Positions 14,475 through 28,216 of a stretch of 36,447 nucleotides of DNA are shown piece after piece (position 1 is the stretch's first letter; every line of letters begins with the position of its first letter). This DNA is from Promethearchaeota archaeon (GTDB taxonomy: Archaea > Asgardarchaeota > Lokiarchaeia > Sigyniarchaeales > SOKP01). The stretch spans positions 1-36,447 of the forward strand of contig JAHPYZ010000048.1 in assembly GCA_019058425.1 (NCBI GenBank). Reading direction: 5' to 3'. A program made the position numbers and the translations under genes. The notes under the pieces were generated by a model. The model saw only the letters and a list, made by a program, of their open reading frames with translations. It ran no database searches and was not told where the DNA came from.

Positions 14475-14609
14475 TGTTTTCTATCGGAGAAAGTATTAAA
14501 TATAAATTAGACAAAAATTAATTAATATTAGGTCTATTACTATAATAATTTCAAATTTAATTATTAATAATCGAGGAGAAACTTCAAAATATCCGAATCA
14601 TCGTAAATT

Positions 14610-15134
14610 ATGACCAATTATGACTACACTTTTAAAATTATGATGCTAGGAGATGCATCTGTTGGGAAAACGTCTCTTACTATGAGATATATCTCAGGAT
14701 TCTTTATGGAGGATTTAAAACTTACTATTGGTGTAGATTTTTATTCTAAAACTACAGGTTTCAGAGATAAAAAGGTCAAATTACAAATTTGGGATTTTGG
14801 CGGTGAGGAACGATTTCGATTTCTTCTCTCTCAGTATAGTAAAGGTGCAAATGGAGCATTTTTCTTATATGACATCACTAATCAAACATCGTTAGATCAT
14901 TTACCAGATTGGACACAAGTAATCAGAGAGCATGCGGGTGACATACCAATAATGTTAATTGGTTCGAAAGTAGACTTAGATGAATTCAGAGCTGTTACTC
15001 GGGATGAAGGAATTTTAGCAGCAAAAAAATATAATCTTGCTTCTTTTGTAGAATTATCTTCTAAAACTGGAGAGAATGTAGAAAAGGCTTTCAATGTTAT
15101 GACAGAAATTCTTTTCGAAAAGTATTCAAGCTAA
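14610..15134 (+). CDS. Rab/Ras-like small GTPase
   Basis: A 174-residue single-domain GTPase. G1 is GDASVGKTS (14-22), a candidate switch I Thr is T39, G3 is WDFGGEERF (61-69), G4 is GSKVD (118-122) and G5 is LSSKTGE (149-155). Compared with Ras/Rab, G3 reads DFGG-E instead of DTAG-Q, so the usual catalytic Gln position is Glu, and the G4 Asn is Ser. There is no C-terminal Cys, so lipid anchoring by prenylation is unlikely. Proteins of this type are abundant in Asgard archaea and are thought to act with Roadblock or longin proteins. Its cellular role is unknown. Confidence 0.9.
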   Translation: MTNYDYTFKIMMLGDASVGKTSLTMRYISGFFMEDLKLTIGVDFYSKTTGFRDKKVKLQIWDFGGEERFRFLLSQYSKGANGAFFLYDITNQTSLDHLPDWTQVIREHAGDIPIMLIGSKVDLDEFRAVTRDEGILAAKKYNLASFVELSSKTGENVEKAFNVMTEILFEKYSS

Positions 15135-15257
15135 GGATATTAAAAAGTATTTTAAAATTAAGCTATGCATTTAAATAAAGTTTAAATTTTCAGCTTTACT
15201 CCTTTTTTAAAATTTCTAAATTTAATTTTATATTATATTTGTATAATTTTTAGAAAG

Positions 15258-15266
15258 AAAAAGGTG
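15258..15266 (+). promoter_or_regulatory. Shine-Dalgarno site (AAAAAGGTG) for selenoprotein 1
   Basis: AAAAAGGTG lies 6 bases before ATC 15273 and contains the GTG at 15264. AAAGGTGTGTTACA is identical to the 14 bases upstream of the L21e ATC. It suggests that translation may begin at ATC 15273 and not at the GTG inside the binding site. Confidence 0.4.
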
Positions 15267-15806
15267 TGTTACATCACGGGAATTAACAATGGAGAACCTC
15301 TAAGGCCAAAGGGAATTCAATTAAATACCCTTGCCCCATTAATAGACACGATAGATATTTATGAAAATCCAATAAATCTAAAGGATTTGCTTCAAGAACA
15401 CGATGGAGTTTTAATTGACTTTTTTCGGGGTAATTGGTGAAACCACTGTAAAAAACACTTAAAACTATTAACCGAGCATATTTCTGAATTTGAAAATCGA
15501 AAAATTAAACTAATTACCATTGCCAGTGATAGTGTTAGACTTCTGAGGAAGTTTAAAGAAGAAAATGAGTTTAATGTTGATATGATATCTGATAGAGGGG
15601 CAAAAATTGCTAAGGAATATGGTGTTTATTGGTTTGCTCCTGGTGGAGGAAAAGATTACAAAATAAAACAAGCGGTCCCAAGTAAATTCCTTATAAATAA
15701 GAATAGAGAAATTATATGGAAATATATAGGGAAAGATAAGACCGATAGACCATCAATTGAAATGATGAAGGAAATAATAGATTCTAAAATTACATATCCC
15801 AAATAA
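15264..15806 (+). CDS. Selenoprotein: peroxiredoxin-like, W-U-N-H-C redox centre (UGA at 15438 read as Sec)
   Basis: Thioredoxin-fold protein of ~180 residues (GTG 15264) or 177 (ATC 15273). One in-frame TGA at 15438-15440 falls exactly where the family has its first redox Cys: DFFRGNW-U-NHC, against RGxWCxxC in Cys homologues. Reading frame and homology continue without shift on both sides. After the TGA come VDMISDRGAKIAKEYGVYWF, a PSKFLIN strand and WKYIGKDKTDRP, all matching the second copy at 16019. It should act as a thiol/selenol oxidoreductase or peroxidase. A SECIS-like RNA overlaps its 3' end (15795-15868) and a T-tract follows. Conventional annotation would report only the downstream piece from 15582 or call a pseudogene. 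Confidence 0.85.
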
Positions 15807-15868
15807 GAATGATTTGAGTATAAGAAAAATGAGATACTCAGGGACAACCTTGTGAGGGTTTTGGGATA
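15795..15868 (+). promoter_or_regulatory. SECIS element 1 (eukaryote-like, three-way junction)
   Basis: Hand-folded. Helix I pairs 15795-15803 (the last coding bases, for Y-P-K) with 15860-15868, 9 bp. The stop TAA (15804-15806) is in the junction. The quartet is AUGA 15809-15812 against GGAC 15842-15845, giving sheared G15811-A15844 and A15812-G15843. Helix II is 15814-15821 with 15834-15841, 8 bp including one U-G. The apical loop 15822-15833 is A-rich. Helix III pairs 15847-15850 with 15856-15859 around loop UGUGA. The AUGA / A-rich loop / GA pattern is the eukaryotic SECIS consensus, which as I recall has been reported for Lokiarchaeota. Confidence 0.8.
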
Positions 15869-15870
15869 CA

Positions 15871-15890
15871 ACTTCTTTTTATTTTTTTTT
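15871..15890 (+). terminator. Probable T-rich transcription terminator of selenoprotein 1
   Basis: A run dominated by T (ACTTCTTTTTATTTTTTTTT) begins two bases after the base of the SECIS stem. Archaeal RNA polymerase stops at such T-tracts without needing a hairpin. Its position means the SECIS is the last structured part of the message. Confidence 0.5.
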
Positions 15891-16018
15891 AAAATTCAAA
15901 ATTACTATTCTTCAATAATCAATTAAGTATTTTCGAATCACAAATGTTTAAAACTTCTAATTTTGTTTATAGGTACAAAAAAGTTTGCAGTGGAATTGAA
16001 TTTAAGGTAAAGAAAATA

Positions 16019-16546
16019 ATGAGCTTAAACAACGAAAGTACCCCTAGACCAAGAGGATTAGGGCTCAATAGTAAAGCTCCTCCGATAAATACTATTGATA
16101 TATATGGAAATCCAATTAATTTATCAAATCTTTTGAGGGAATATAATGGAATTTTGATAGATTTCTTTAGGGGTACATGGTGAAACTATTGAAAGGAACA
16201 TCTCGAGCATATAACAGATCACATTGACGAATTAGAAGAACGAAATATAAAAATTATTTCAATATCAACTGATACACCAGGATTATTAAAGAAGTATAGA
16301 GAAACAAATAATTTTCCCGTAGATATGATCTCAGATCGTGGGGGGAAAATAGCAAAAGATTATAACGTCTATTGGTTCGCTGAAGGTTGGGGTAAATTAA
16401 AAATAAAACAAGCGATACCAAGCAAATTTCTTATCCATAGAAATGGTGAAATTATCTGGAAATATATTGGAAGAGATAAAACAGACAGACCTGCTGTAAG
16501 TGCACTCATATTCCTAATTGATAAATACCTAACAAATCCCAAATGA
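16019..16546 (+). CDS. Selenoprotein: peroxiredoxin-like with two Sec codons (W-U-N-Y-U), UGA stop
   Basis: A 175-residue paralogue of the gene at 15264. ATG 16019 follows an AAGGT site; an in-frame ATG at 15944 would add an unmatched N-terminus. Two TGA codons, 16181-16183 and 16190-16192, replace both redox cysteines: DFFRGTW-U-NY-U (residues 55 and 58). Downstream homology is continuous (VDMISDRGGKIAKDY, KQAIPSKFLI, WKYIGRDKTDRP). The predicted stop at 16544-16546 is also TGA, aligned with the TAA of copy 1 after the same Pro-Lys, so termination there is expected although the codon also encodes Sec upstream. A diselenide or selenol centre is inferred. The likely origin is tandem duplication. 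Confidence 0.83.
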
Positions 16547-16606
16547 GAATGAATTGAACGTGAAAAAAACGAGACGTTCAAAGACAACCCTGTGTGGGTA
16601 TTGGGA
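16537..16606 (+). promoter_or_regulatory. SECIS element 2 (eukaryote-like, three-way junction)
   Basis: Same layout as element 1. Helix I pairs 16537-16542 (coding) with 16601-16606, 6 bp. The stop TGA 16544-16546 is in the junction. The quartet is AUGA 16549-16552 against AGAC 16582-16585, giving sheared G16551-A16584 and A16552-G16583. Helix II pairs 16554-16561 with 16574-16581, 8 perfect bp. The apical loop 16562-16573 contains seven consecutive A. Helix III pairs 16587-16590 with 16596-16599 around loop UGUGU. Three helix II pairs differ from element 1 by double compensatory changes. Confidence 0.82.
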
Positions 16607-16611
16607 CTAAG

Positions 16612-16621
16612 TTTTCTTTTT
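16612..16621 (+). terminator. Probable T-rich terminator of selenoprotein 2
   Basis: TTTTCTTTTT starts five bases after the SECIS stem, the same arrangement as behind selenoprotein 1. It may also serve as a boundary with the convergent zinc-ribbon gene. Confidence 0.4.
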
Positions 16622-16635
16622 AATTATTGATATCG

Positions 16636-16827
16636 CTATGTGTTAAATCTTACATACTTTACAAACTGTTTAGTCAACCTATTATAACGAAATCCAGATT
16701 CAAAACAATTTCCGCATTGAGAGCATTGATATTGAGTTAATTTTCCACCATCTGAGCGTAATATGTCATTATTTAACATTGCACTTCCACATTTGGTACA
16801 AAATATATTTGATACCATATATTGCAT
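16636..16827 (-). CDS. Small zinc-ribbon protein
   Basis: A 63-residue protein with two CxxC pairs (C10/C13 and C35/C38) separated by 21 residues, the layout of a single zinc ribbon. The tail NRLTKQFVKYVRF is basic. It could bind nucleic acid or protein; no specific function can be assigned. The start may be ATG 16827 or the ATG three codons later. It converges on the second selenoprotein gene, 89 bases beyond that gene's stop. Confidence 0.6.
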   Translation of the reverse strand: MQYMVSNIFCTKCGSAMLNNDILRSDGGKLTQYQCSQCGNCFESGFRYNRLTKQFVKYVRFNT

Positions 16828-16891
16828 AGAATTTGGAACAAATTTAAAAAAAGAAAGTAAGCAGATTTAGTAATAATTTGAAAAAAGTAGA

Positions 16892-17449
16892 TTATTTATT
16901 CTCGTGTTTTTTGAATTTATGAATAATTATCATGAGTAAGGCTACCACAAAATATGCTATTGCTGCAAATAAAACACTGAACTTAATTAATGCAAACAAA
17001 GATGCTAAAATGGGATTAAATGGAGAGAGAGATATAGGATTAGCAAGCATTATAAGTAAATTAATGTTCTCAATTACATCAAAAATCCCCGTCAGAAAAG
17101 GTGTTATAGTAAAATATAATCCAATTTTATGGATTGAGCCTTCTGATCTCCTAAGTACAAGTAATATCAACCCAAGAGCTAAAGAGACATATCCAACAAT
17201 ATACAAAAAATCCCAATATATTGCAGAAGTTTGTCTAGTTATACCATCGACACCCCATACTGAAAAGATGGTTTCCACTCTTTCAGGAGTCCAGGCAAAT
17301 TCATAATCTAGAATTCCATAAGTTGGAACTGCCACCTCAATAGGTATGAAAATTAGTACATATGTTAATAAAACTATTGCTAAACCAAATATTGTTATTA
17401 AAATAACAAGTTTATCTTTGGGTGATTCTTTAAATTTATCTAGGAACAT
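16892..17449 (-). CDS. Hypothetical membrane protein with four transmembrane segments
   Basis: A 185-residue protein with hydrophobic segments near residues 17-35, 80-100, 107-127 and 145-178. A polar loop with YEFAWTPERVETIFSVWG follows the first. IFDVIENINLL sits at the third membrane segment, so acidic residues lie in or near the membrane. I do not recognise the family. It is upstream of, and on the same strand as, the small zinc-ribbon gene, with a gap of about 65 bases. Confidence 0.6.
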   Translation of the reverse strand: MFLDKFKESPKDKLVILITIFGLAIVLLTYVLIFIPIEVAVPTYGILDYEFAWTPERVETIFSVWGVDGITRQTSAIYWDFLYIVGYVSLALGLILLVLRRSEGSIHKIGLYFTITPFLTGIFDVIENINLLIMLANPISLSPFNPILASLFALIKFSVLFAAIAYFVVALLMIIIHKFKKHENK

Positions 17450-17595: not shown

Positions 17596-17802
17596 TTATA
17601 CTAAACCAATAGCGATTTTCATATCTGCAGCAGTGACTTTCTTTCTGCCGGAGTGTTTGGCAATATCAAGCGCGCAGCCAGTTAAACCTTTAGCATATTC
17701 TTCTAAATAATCCATTAATTTATCAACTGCGGCACGACTTACGATTTCAGCTCCAGCTTTCTTCATTAGAGCCCGTAATGGACTCCATGCAAATGCGGCC
17801 AT
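17596..17802 (-). CDS. Archaeal histone
   Basis: A 68-residue, single histone-fold protein. Visible features: N-terminal SPLRALMKKAGAEIVSRAAV (alpha-1 and loop 1), the long central helix DKLMDYLEEYAKGLTGCALDIAKHSG, then GRKKVTAADMKIAIG (loop 2 and alpha-3). No lysine-rich tail is present. It should dimerise and wrap DNA. The start has a clear GGAGG ribosome binding site about 9 bases upstream. Residue 43 is a Cys in the central helix, unusual for archaeal histones. The long upstream region (17803-18309) contains several palindromes. Confidence 0.95.
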   Translation of the reverse strand: MAAFAWSPLRALMKKAGAEIVSRAAVDKLMDYLEEYAKGLTGCALDIAKHSGRKKVTAADMKIAIGLV

Positions 17803-19517: not shown

Positions 19518-20126
19518 ATGAAAAGCCAAATAAAACCCCTCTCTGAGATGAGTGAAAGCGAAAAACCAATATATATTTTCAAGATTTGCATTCTAGGTGA
19601 AGAAAGAGTTGGTAAAACATGTATCGCTAGGAGATTATGTTTTAACATGTTCGACCTGAATACAAAAGAAACATTAGGGATTGAATTCTATACAAAAGAT
19701 ATTCCTGTCATAGTTAATGATGATGAATCATTCGTTCGATTAAGTATATGGGATTTTGGAGGACGTGAACAATTCAAAAAACTATTTCCGTATTATATTA
19801 ATGGTGCTAATGGAATATTTATGGTTTTTGATTTAGTTAATATTCAGACTTTATTGAGATTGGATTGGTGGTATGAAAAACTTGGAGAATATAATCAAGG
19901 TCTGACACCTCGGATGTGTATAGGAACAAAAAGCGATCTTGTTAAAACTGCTGATGAAAAAACGAAAGTAGAGGAATTAGCAATTAAACGATTCATGGAA
20001 AGACATAAAGAAAATGATTTCTACCAAACTTCTTCAAAGGAAAATTATAATATTGAACTAATTTTCAAAGAACTTGTTCTTAAGATATTAAAGAAAAACA
20101 AATTAGATTATAATCGATTGCTATAA
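19518..20126 (+). CDS. Rab/Ras-like small GTPase, divergent
   Basis: A 202-residue small GTPase with a ~20-residue N-terminal extension. G1 is GEERVGKT (27-34), G3 is WDFGGREQF (78-86), G4 is GTKSD (136-140) and G5 is TSSKEN (171-176). Relative to Ras, the catalytic Gln position carries Arg and the G4 Asn is Thr, so intrinsic hydrolysis and nucleotide affinity may be altered. There is no C-terminal Cys for prenylation. It is a separate lineage from the GTPase at 14610 but shares the DFGG signature. It may pair with Roadblock proteins, which is an inference from the Asgard context. Confidence 0.88.
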   Translation: MKSQIKPLSEMSESEKPIYIFKICILGEERVGKTCIARRLCFNMFDLNTKETLGIEFYTKDIPVIVNDDESFVRLSIWDFGGREQFKKLFPYYINGANGIFMVFDLVNIQTLLRLDWWYEKLGEYNQGLTPRMCIGTKSDLVKTADEKTKVEELAIKRFMERHKENDFYQTSSKENYNIELIFKELVLKILKKNKLDYNRLL

Positions 20127-27841: not shown

Positions 27842-28216
27842 ATGGCAAAGAGAAAAGATAAAACTATAGCAGAGAAAGTCGATCTAAGTAGGAAAAAAAC
27901 TAAGGAATTTGATGTTGACACCAATCTCAAGGTTGTTTATAAAACTGGTAAAATAATCTATGGTAAAAATCAAGTTTTAAAGAAATTAAAAAGGGAAAAT
28001 CTCTTCAAAATGCTAATTGTCAGTGAAAATTGCCCTGCAGAATTGATGAGTCAATTAAATCATTATAATTCTCTACTAAGCAATCAAATCTTTATCTATA
28101 AATATAAAGGTTCAAGCTGGGATTTGGGCTTGGCTTGTGCTAAACCTTACATGATTTCTATTATTGGTATCATTGATTTTGGAGATTCAGATTTGATCAC
28201 TTTGAAAAATAAATAA
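27842..28216 (+). CDS. rpl30e: Large ribosomal subunit protein L30e
   Basis: A 124-residue protein of the L7Ae/L30e superfamily in its conserved place after rpoA2. VDTNLKVVYKTGKIIYGKNQVLKKLKRENLFKMLIVSENCP gives the first strands and helix, and HYNSLLSNQIFIYKYKGSSWDLGLACAKPYMISIIGI the rest. An ~18-residue Lys-rich N-terminal extension (AKRKDKTIAEKVDLSRKK) is longer than in many archaea. L30e-family proteins bind kink-turn RNA; eukaryotic L30 also binds SECIS kink-turns, which is relevant to the selenoprotein loci here. Confidence 0.92.
   Translation: MAKRKDKTIAEKVDLSRKKTKEFDVDTNLKVVYKTGKIIYGKNQVLKKLKRENLFKMLIVSENCPAELMSQLNHYNSLLSNQIFIYKYKGSSWDLGLACAKPYMISIIGIIDFGDSDLITLKNK

Follow-up and report, generated by a model that had tools for sequence, protein, structure and literature searches.

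SECIS elements with eukaryote-like features have already been described for Asgard archaea. The main text of Huang, Xiao and Zhang (2024, PMC11227280) reports that 1224 of the 1439 Asgard selenoprotein sequences have eSECIS-like structures, mainly of type I in the Prx-like genes, and the model given there consists of the quartet, an upper stem and an apical loop. The same text lists seven Asgard selenoprotein families, found via homology to known ones, describes UGA stops that often overlap the AUGA in Lokiarchaeia, and states that a gene for SBP2 was not seen in Asgard genomes. In substance, the first-pass annotation, which mentions lokiarchaeal SECIS as an intermediate between archaeal and eukaryotic systems, agrees with this literature. 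In addition, a review gives the lokiarchaeal SECIS one apical loop (PMC9499178, citing Mariotti 2016), and according to an in vivo study a lokiarchaeal SECIS does not work in Methanococcus maripaludis (Peiter et al. 2025, PMC11881835).

Here we analysed two elements in a stretch of 36,447 nucleotides (the window), contig C54 of a Lokiarchaeia genome (G000) with 143 contigs, 97.6% completeness and 7.4% contamination. Both are very probably the SECIS elements of Lokiarchaeia Prx-like genes, in which a three-way junction directs the reading of an upstream UGA as selenocysteine (Sec).

Two tandem Prx-like genes with in-frame UGA codons

Both genes lie on the forward strand. Copy 1 (15264–15806, start GTG, uncertain) ends at a UAA stop (15804–15806) and contains one conserved in-frame UGA at 15438–15440, which translates as Sec in a UNHC motif. 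Copy 2 (16019–16546) probably begins at the ATG at 16019 and ends with a UGA stop located inside the SECIS (16544–16546); according to the translation and the aligned rows, two further UGA codons (16181–16183 and 16190–16192) form the first and second Sec of a UNYU motif. Reading through the UGA codons yields AhpC/TSA-family proteins from both genes (PF00578, E 7.7e-21 for copy 1 and E 8.9e-23 for copy 2). The AhpC/TSA domain and a Sec codon in a UxxC or UxxU centre, both present in each copy, are the features that Prx-like thiol:disulfide oxidoreductase selenoproteins have in common in the available description (PMC13188914), and we see no essential difference between those proteins and the window genes. 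Each gene probably encodes a peroxiredoxin-like oxidoreductase whose UxxC or UxxU centre contains Sec, in line with the Prx-like selenoproteins already reported from Asgard archaea (PMC11227280).

Using copy 2 as query against the 83 genomes of the class (E 1e-20), we found 58 Prx-like matches in 40 genomes. The Sec codon is TGA in all 58 aligned rows, which derive from 53 loci and include the window's own two, and protein conservation extends to either side of it. Three codons further on, the rows carry either Cys (40 of 58) or a second TGA (18 of 58). When named genomes were searched separately with the copy 1 segment that follows its UGA, 12 relatives were returned, all of them Candidatus Lokiarchaeota or Lokiarchaeia records.

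Other genes of the window fit its origin. By eye only, small Ras-like GTPases were noted at 14610–15134 (+) and 19518–20126 (+) and a histone-like protein at 17596–17802 (−), as would be expected for an Asgard archaeon. Moreover, the window encodes a protein of the L7Ae/L30e family at 27842–28216 (+; PF01248, E 2.9e-11), a family of k-turn binders, which makes it on sequence grounds a candidate SECIS binder.

Architecture of the SECIS elements

The elements overlap the stop codons of their genes, and their AUGA sits 356–368 nt downstream of the Sec UGA codon(s). The AUGA opposite NGAN, the 8-bp helix and the A-rich loop that the first-pass annotation had placed after both genes were all confirmed on the sequence. 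In copy 1, AUGA (15809–15812) faces G15843 and A15844, and helix II (15814–15821 with 15834–15841) is capped by an A-rich apical loop of 12 nt (15822–15833). In copy 2, AUGA (16549–16552) faces G16583 and A16584, and helix II (16554–16561 with 16574–16581, also seen in the fold) likewise carries a 12-nt loop (16562–16573). As that annotation had claimed, helix II differs between the copies by one change from U·G to U-A and by three exchanges on both sides of a pair (G-C to A-U, U-A to C-G and A-U to G-C). Single-sequence folding z-scores are modest (−1.65 for copy 1 and −2.82 for copy 2) and were not relied on.

Related elements were collected with a pattern scan for AUGA or AGGA, an 8-bp helix and GA, which located an element behind 54 of the 58 Prx rows. 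Two of the other four rows stop at a contig end, one (L007, G045:C57) is matched by the model with 83.1 bits, and the most distant (L069) has no element. Leaving out the two window copies and a cut-off row (L013), we aligned the 51 remaining Prx elements (alignment A1) and built from them a covariance model (R1). This model finds both window copies, at 15792–15874 (+, 79.7 bits, E 4e-18) and 16532–16614 (+, 73.3 bits, E 2e-16), and the sole other match in the window up to E 10 has E 4; the two structures are thus more than chance. In A1, 95.3% of the helix II cells are paired, all eight pairs have changed on both sides, and the covariation score of the whole structure is 0.487, compared with 0.265 in shuffles, none of 500 of which scored as high. 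The expectation that orthologous loci keep the structure thus holds for the helices; for the quartet it holds more weakly, as the elements were partly selected on AUGA/AGGA and GA.

A larger alignment (A3) contains 78 elements of mixed families, window copies included, and trained a second model (R2). Its Prx elements were taken by the AUGA/AGGA and GA pattern and the others by a model built from those, and the alignment is fitted to its model and favours that structure. AUGA and GA are each present in 77 of the 78, partly by selection, and three apical adenines are found in every element. Directly behind the quartet GA comes a C (74 of 78), usually followed by one or two bases, then ACC..GGU and then helix I.

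Two features are absent from the first-pass annotation: helix I and, between it and the GA, a third hairpin. Helix I comprises 9 bp in copy 1 (15795–15803 with 15860–15868, −11.6 kcal/mol) and 6 bp in copy 2 (16537–16542 with 16601–16606, −8.3 kcal/mol). RNAalifold recovers it neither on the MAFFT alignment of the Prx elements (A1) nor on that of 41 non-Prx elements (A6), probably because its 5′ strand shifts; a duplex test with swapped partners was used instead. Across the 78 elements the native duplex averages −9.22 kcal/mol, compared with −6.22 kcal/mol for swapped partners (none of 5000 permutations as good), and the native partner beats the median of its own row in 71. On the bulged strand, about 7–8 nt separate helix I from the quartet.

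The third helix (T arm) is formed in copy 1 by 15847–15850 with 15856–15859 (ACCU-UGUGA-GGGU) and directly abuts helix I, whereas in copy 2 it is formed by 16587–16590 with 16596–16599 (ACCC-UGUGU-GGGU); its distance from helix I is 0–1 nt in the window copies. The hairpin appears in the minimum-energy fold of copy 2; in copy 1 it appears in the centroid fold and is missing from the minimum-energy fold. Together with the result of RNAalifold on A1, which shows helix II alone, and with the two published descriptions cited above that include no such arm (PMC11227280 and PMC9499178, as far as their available text goes), the latter observation is what speaks for an ordinary two-helix SECIS of eukaryotic type, whose third hairpin would be neutral or serve something separate such as RNA stability. 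We consider this improbable, even though it is the most serious of the alternatives. The hairpin occupies a fixed place in the junction, with near-invariant CC/GG, and its closing pair (60–81, next to CC/GG) covaries: it is formed in 71 of 78 elements against a shuffled mean of 46.5 (none of 2000 shuffles as high), as A-U (49), U-A (9), C-G (5), G-U (5), G-C (2) or U-G (1). The next pair outward is formed in 50 of 76 against 41.6 (20 of 2000 shuffles as high). The C-G pairs and the innermost pair say little, because the former are nearly invariant and the latter (60 of 77 against 57.6) does no better than shuffled. The short loop holds a G in 71 of 78, and in 77 of 78 the hairpin segment has a better fold than its mononucleotide shuffles have on average; on A6 RNAalifold recovers helix II plus 3 bp of the third helix. 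In a set of 48 distinct rows outside the Prx rows (A2), the paired cells amount to 96.1% in helix II, 89.5% in the third helix and 70.0% in helix I. These comparisons support an element built as a three-way junction with a conserved third helix.

The reading of a eukaryotic SECIS signature stands in part. The quartet and the A-rich apical loop hold, whereas the conserved third helix does not belong to that signature, and Rfam SECIS models gave no match at the gathering score, nor up to E 10 in 14600–17000. A fully eukaryotic SECIS is rejected because the third helix is present and the Rfam match missing; the evidence supports SECIS elements of an Asgard archaeon with a eukaryote-like AUGA/GA quartet.

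Other selenoprotein genes and small candidate families

In the own genome, R1 matches ten places up to E 10, all with E 0.0045 or less. They comprise the two window copies, SelD, two FrhD genes, a VhuU-like ORF, a zinc-ribbon peptide and three tandem membrane ORFs. The element stands at the 3′ end of SelD (GUSCK; TIGR00476 match). The two FrhD genes (contigs C17 and C103) carry two UGA each; the C17 protein matches PF02662, and the C103 gene is named by likeness only. The 48-residue ORF (DCULSCAAH), which we take to be VhuU-like from its motif, had no match in a Pfam search. R2 matches 14 places at E up to 1, namely the ten of R1, a third FrhD (C102, PF02662), a membrane peptide with GGGGUPCU (C124), and two places tied to no selenoprotein, on C64 (36.7 bits, E 1.2e-4) and C100 (22.4 bits, E 0.65). 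The C64 match (G000:C64:36905-36993, −; L136) lies directly behind a long ORF. In relatives, the 40 non-Prx R1 matches taken from among the matches listed are mostly behind FrhD- or SelD-like ORFs or small ORFs, with no identified gene at L088 and L118.

The Sec machinery was examined in the same genome. SepSecS is present (E 2.1e-146), and among 14 control genomes its family matches M. jannaschii alone. SelD gives two places over the cut-off, each with one TGA; for the second (G000:C29:24868-25665, −), no R2 match is listed behind it. The selB model marks eight places, all short of its cut-off of 242.25 bits, the best with 230 bits. A genome search for tRNA-Sec gave two RF01852 matches, both under the cut-off and located on tRNA-Arg and tRNA-Gly. 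A T-arm intron is reported for one lokiarchaeal tRNA-Sec in the review text (PMC9499178), and by analogy such an intron may hide this tRNA from the search.

The element is widespread in the class. R1 matches 74 of the 83 genomes at E 0.01, and SepSecS is found in 77 of them at E 1e-40. At E 0.001 and under stricter filters with few scored candidates, R2 matches 84 of 227 genomes of the phylum, 76 of 83 inside the class and 8 of 144 outside. According to the literature some other Asgard classes use Sec, so the few matches outside mean that these classes mostly go unrecognised by this model. Among the 12 named Lokiarchaeota or Lokiarchaeia loci, some of whose records may be the same genomes as used to build R2, the element stands behind the Prx-like gene in all 12, and two have a second one.

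Two families of small ORFs came from this search by signal. The first is a zinc-ribbon peptide of about 37 residues with a putative Sec as its last residue (L138–L159, L162 and L163, also L075 and L101–L105; in the own genome G000:C69:83257-83364, −), for which an alignment search matched 33 of the 83 genomes in 41 rows. Thirty rows were inspected as loci: 24 end in Lys-UGA followed by UAA (19) or UAG (5), two (L160 and L161) end in Lys-Cys-UAA, and four more distant ones have neither form. An R2 match lies behind all 24 UGA forms, five zinc-ribbon elements (L075, L101, L102, L103 and L105) having been in the R2 training set. The distance from UGA to AUGA is 34–50 nt in 23 of them (43 in L139) and 140 nt in one. 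Both Cys forms, which are located upstream of a Prx-like gene, have no element of their own, and the sole R2 match at each locus belongs to that gene. At the sequence level, this exchange of Sec for Cys is the best indication that the last UGA is translated, although Cys forms are few, with two.

The second family consists of Gly-rich peptides with a single transmembrane segment (by eye), many with one TGA, found in 50 of 83 genomes at E 0.01 (61 rows, the weakest of which may be chance matches). Thirty rows were taken as loci and 26 gave a readable ORF with U; of the 25 ORFs measured with an R2 match, 20 have U-x-C. The loci (L168–L173, L175–L186 and L188–L195; G000:C124:47288-47485, −) mostly show GGUxC, and nearly all have the element behind them. 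The three tandem membrane ORFs on C99 (−; L073, L078 and L079) have one UGA and one element each, at 63583, 64132 and 64742. Moreover, four membrane ORFs of about 100 residues (L084, L087, L094 and L099), with an acidic stretch, a Cys shortly before the UGA and an element behind, are possibly another selenoprotein group.

The zinc-ribbon, single-transmembrane and C99 ORFs do not appear among the seven families of PMC11227280 or in PMC13188914, as far as the accessible text of both papers extends, and a literature search returned no title or abstract on these small families. Searching by signal thus led to two small families that homology to known selenoproteins would likely miss, and they seem to have been missed by earlier homology-based surveys. 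Used as a search tool, the element leads to candidate selenoprotein genes through the signal itself, with no need for likeness to known families.

The distribution of the element also bears on its role. k-turn-like RNAs can regulate, and the junction resembles TPP riboswitches (PMC10573300), so the element might regulate selenium genes by binding a protein or sensing a metabolite instead of acting as a recoding signal; its SECIS-like location, behind genes with UGA at their 3′ end, and the two Cys zinc ribbons without an element of their own make this highly unlikely. Least credible of all is that the genes are pseudogenes or sequencing errors with UGA as a plain stop and the hairpins 3′-end or terminator structures, as T-rich tracts behind both elements might suggest, given the invariant TGA, the conservation of the proteins on both sides of it and the same element behind unrelated selenoprotein genes.

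Proposed mechanism and comparison with known systems

In the recoding mechanism that we favour, the SECIS at the 3′ end of the gene would make the ribosome read the distant upstream UGA as Sec, through a pathway of the archaeal/eukaryotic kind with tRNA-Sec, PSTK, SepSecS, SelD and EFSec. Helix I would close the three-way junction, with the bulged 5′ strand carrying AUGA. AUGA and the opposite GA would form tandem sheared G·A pairs at the foot of helix II, and the short third hairpin would branch off the opposite strand, where this runs from the GA to helix I. The sequence data show the UGA codons with their conservation, support for all three helices, and SepSecS and SelD places with UGA in the genome. 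Actual Sec insertion, the kinked geometry and the identity of the binding protein are what we infer. The UGA stop of copy 2 lies only 2 nt before the AUGA, and the zinc-ribbon UGAs are 34 nt or more away; if the former stops translation and the latter are read, whether a UGA means stop or Sec could depend on how far it lies from the element.

A more far-reaching proposal, which we put forward tentatively and hold to be somewhat doubtful, is that the three-armed SECIS is a k-junction and a recoding architecture of its own. The arm would bar abundant L7Ae-type proteins, and arm and quartet together would be read by a dedicated binder in the place of SBP2; eukaryotes would later have lost the arm and put SBP2 there. 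An unknown Asgard protein that PMC11227280 mentions near Sec genes is among the candidates for this binder. The same signal would drive hidden micro-selenoproteins, including the zinc ribbon and the widespread membrane-anchored GGUxC peptide. The third arm is a concrete part that may bear on how an archaeal SECIS reaches the ribosome by an SBP2-free route.

Compared with known systems, the window elements are closest to the Asgard type I eSECIS-like structures of prxL, sharing the gene family, the lineage, the AUGA_GA core and the 3′-end position described in PMC11227280. Both copies have the type I core (5′-GA_[G/A]A-3′, mainly AUGA_GA), an upper stem of 8 bp and a loop of 12 nt, within the published 7–15 bp (up to two mismatches) and 8–20 nt, and a position within 30 nt upstream to 600 nt downstream of the gene 3′ end. 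The key-region model in the main text has no third helix, whereas the window elements have one; the same text describes no strong nucleotide conservation in the surroundings of the key regions when families are compared, whereas here GAC-N-ACC..G..GGU is conserved across families. A literature search for a third arm or an Asgard SECIS covariance model returned no such title or abstract, the PMC11227280 supplements and Mariotti 2016 standing outside the comparison. SECIS of this kind are already published for Asgard archaea, and the third arm is apparently the new part. With it, the lokiarchaeal element no longer looks like a plain hairpin of eukaryotic type.

Eukaryotic SECIS have the AUGA/NGAN quartet, the unpaired apical adenines and the 3′ position in common with the window elements, and differ by description in the three-way junction found here, the missing Rfam match and, according to the literature, the lack of SBP2 in Asgard archaea. 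Methanogen SECIS are likewise archaeal 3′ elements with a kink-turn-like core. Their core is GAA opposite A between G-C clamps, by description different from that of the window elements, in which the GAA_A bulge is not present (structure read by eye, no Rfam match). The k-junction of TPP riboswitches and DUF-3268 RNA (PMC10573300) combines tandem G·A/A·G pairs, a bulged strand and an extra helix that adjoins the C helix on the non-bulged strand. By its topology, the third arm would make the Lokiarchaeia element a k-junction as well, with the 7–8 nt on its bulged strand as the point of difference, and the narrow gap between the third helix and helix I is compatible with coaxial C and T helices. 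Two published k-junctions do not fold with L7Ae, and the comparison predicts the same here: the element would fold with ions and not with L7Ae.
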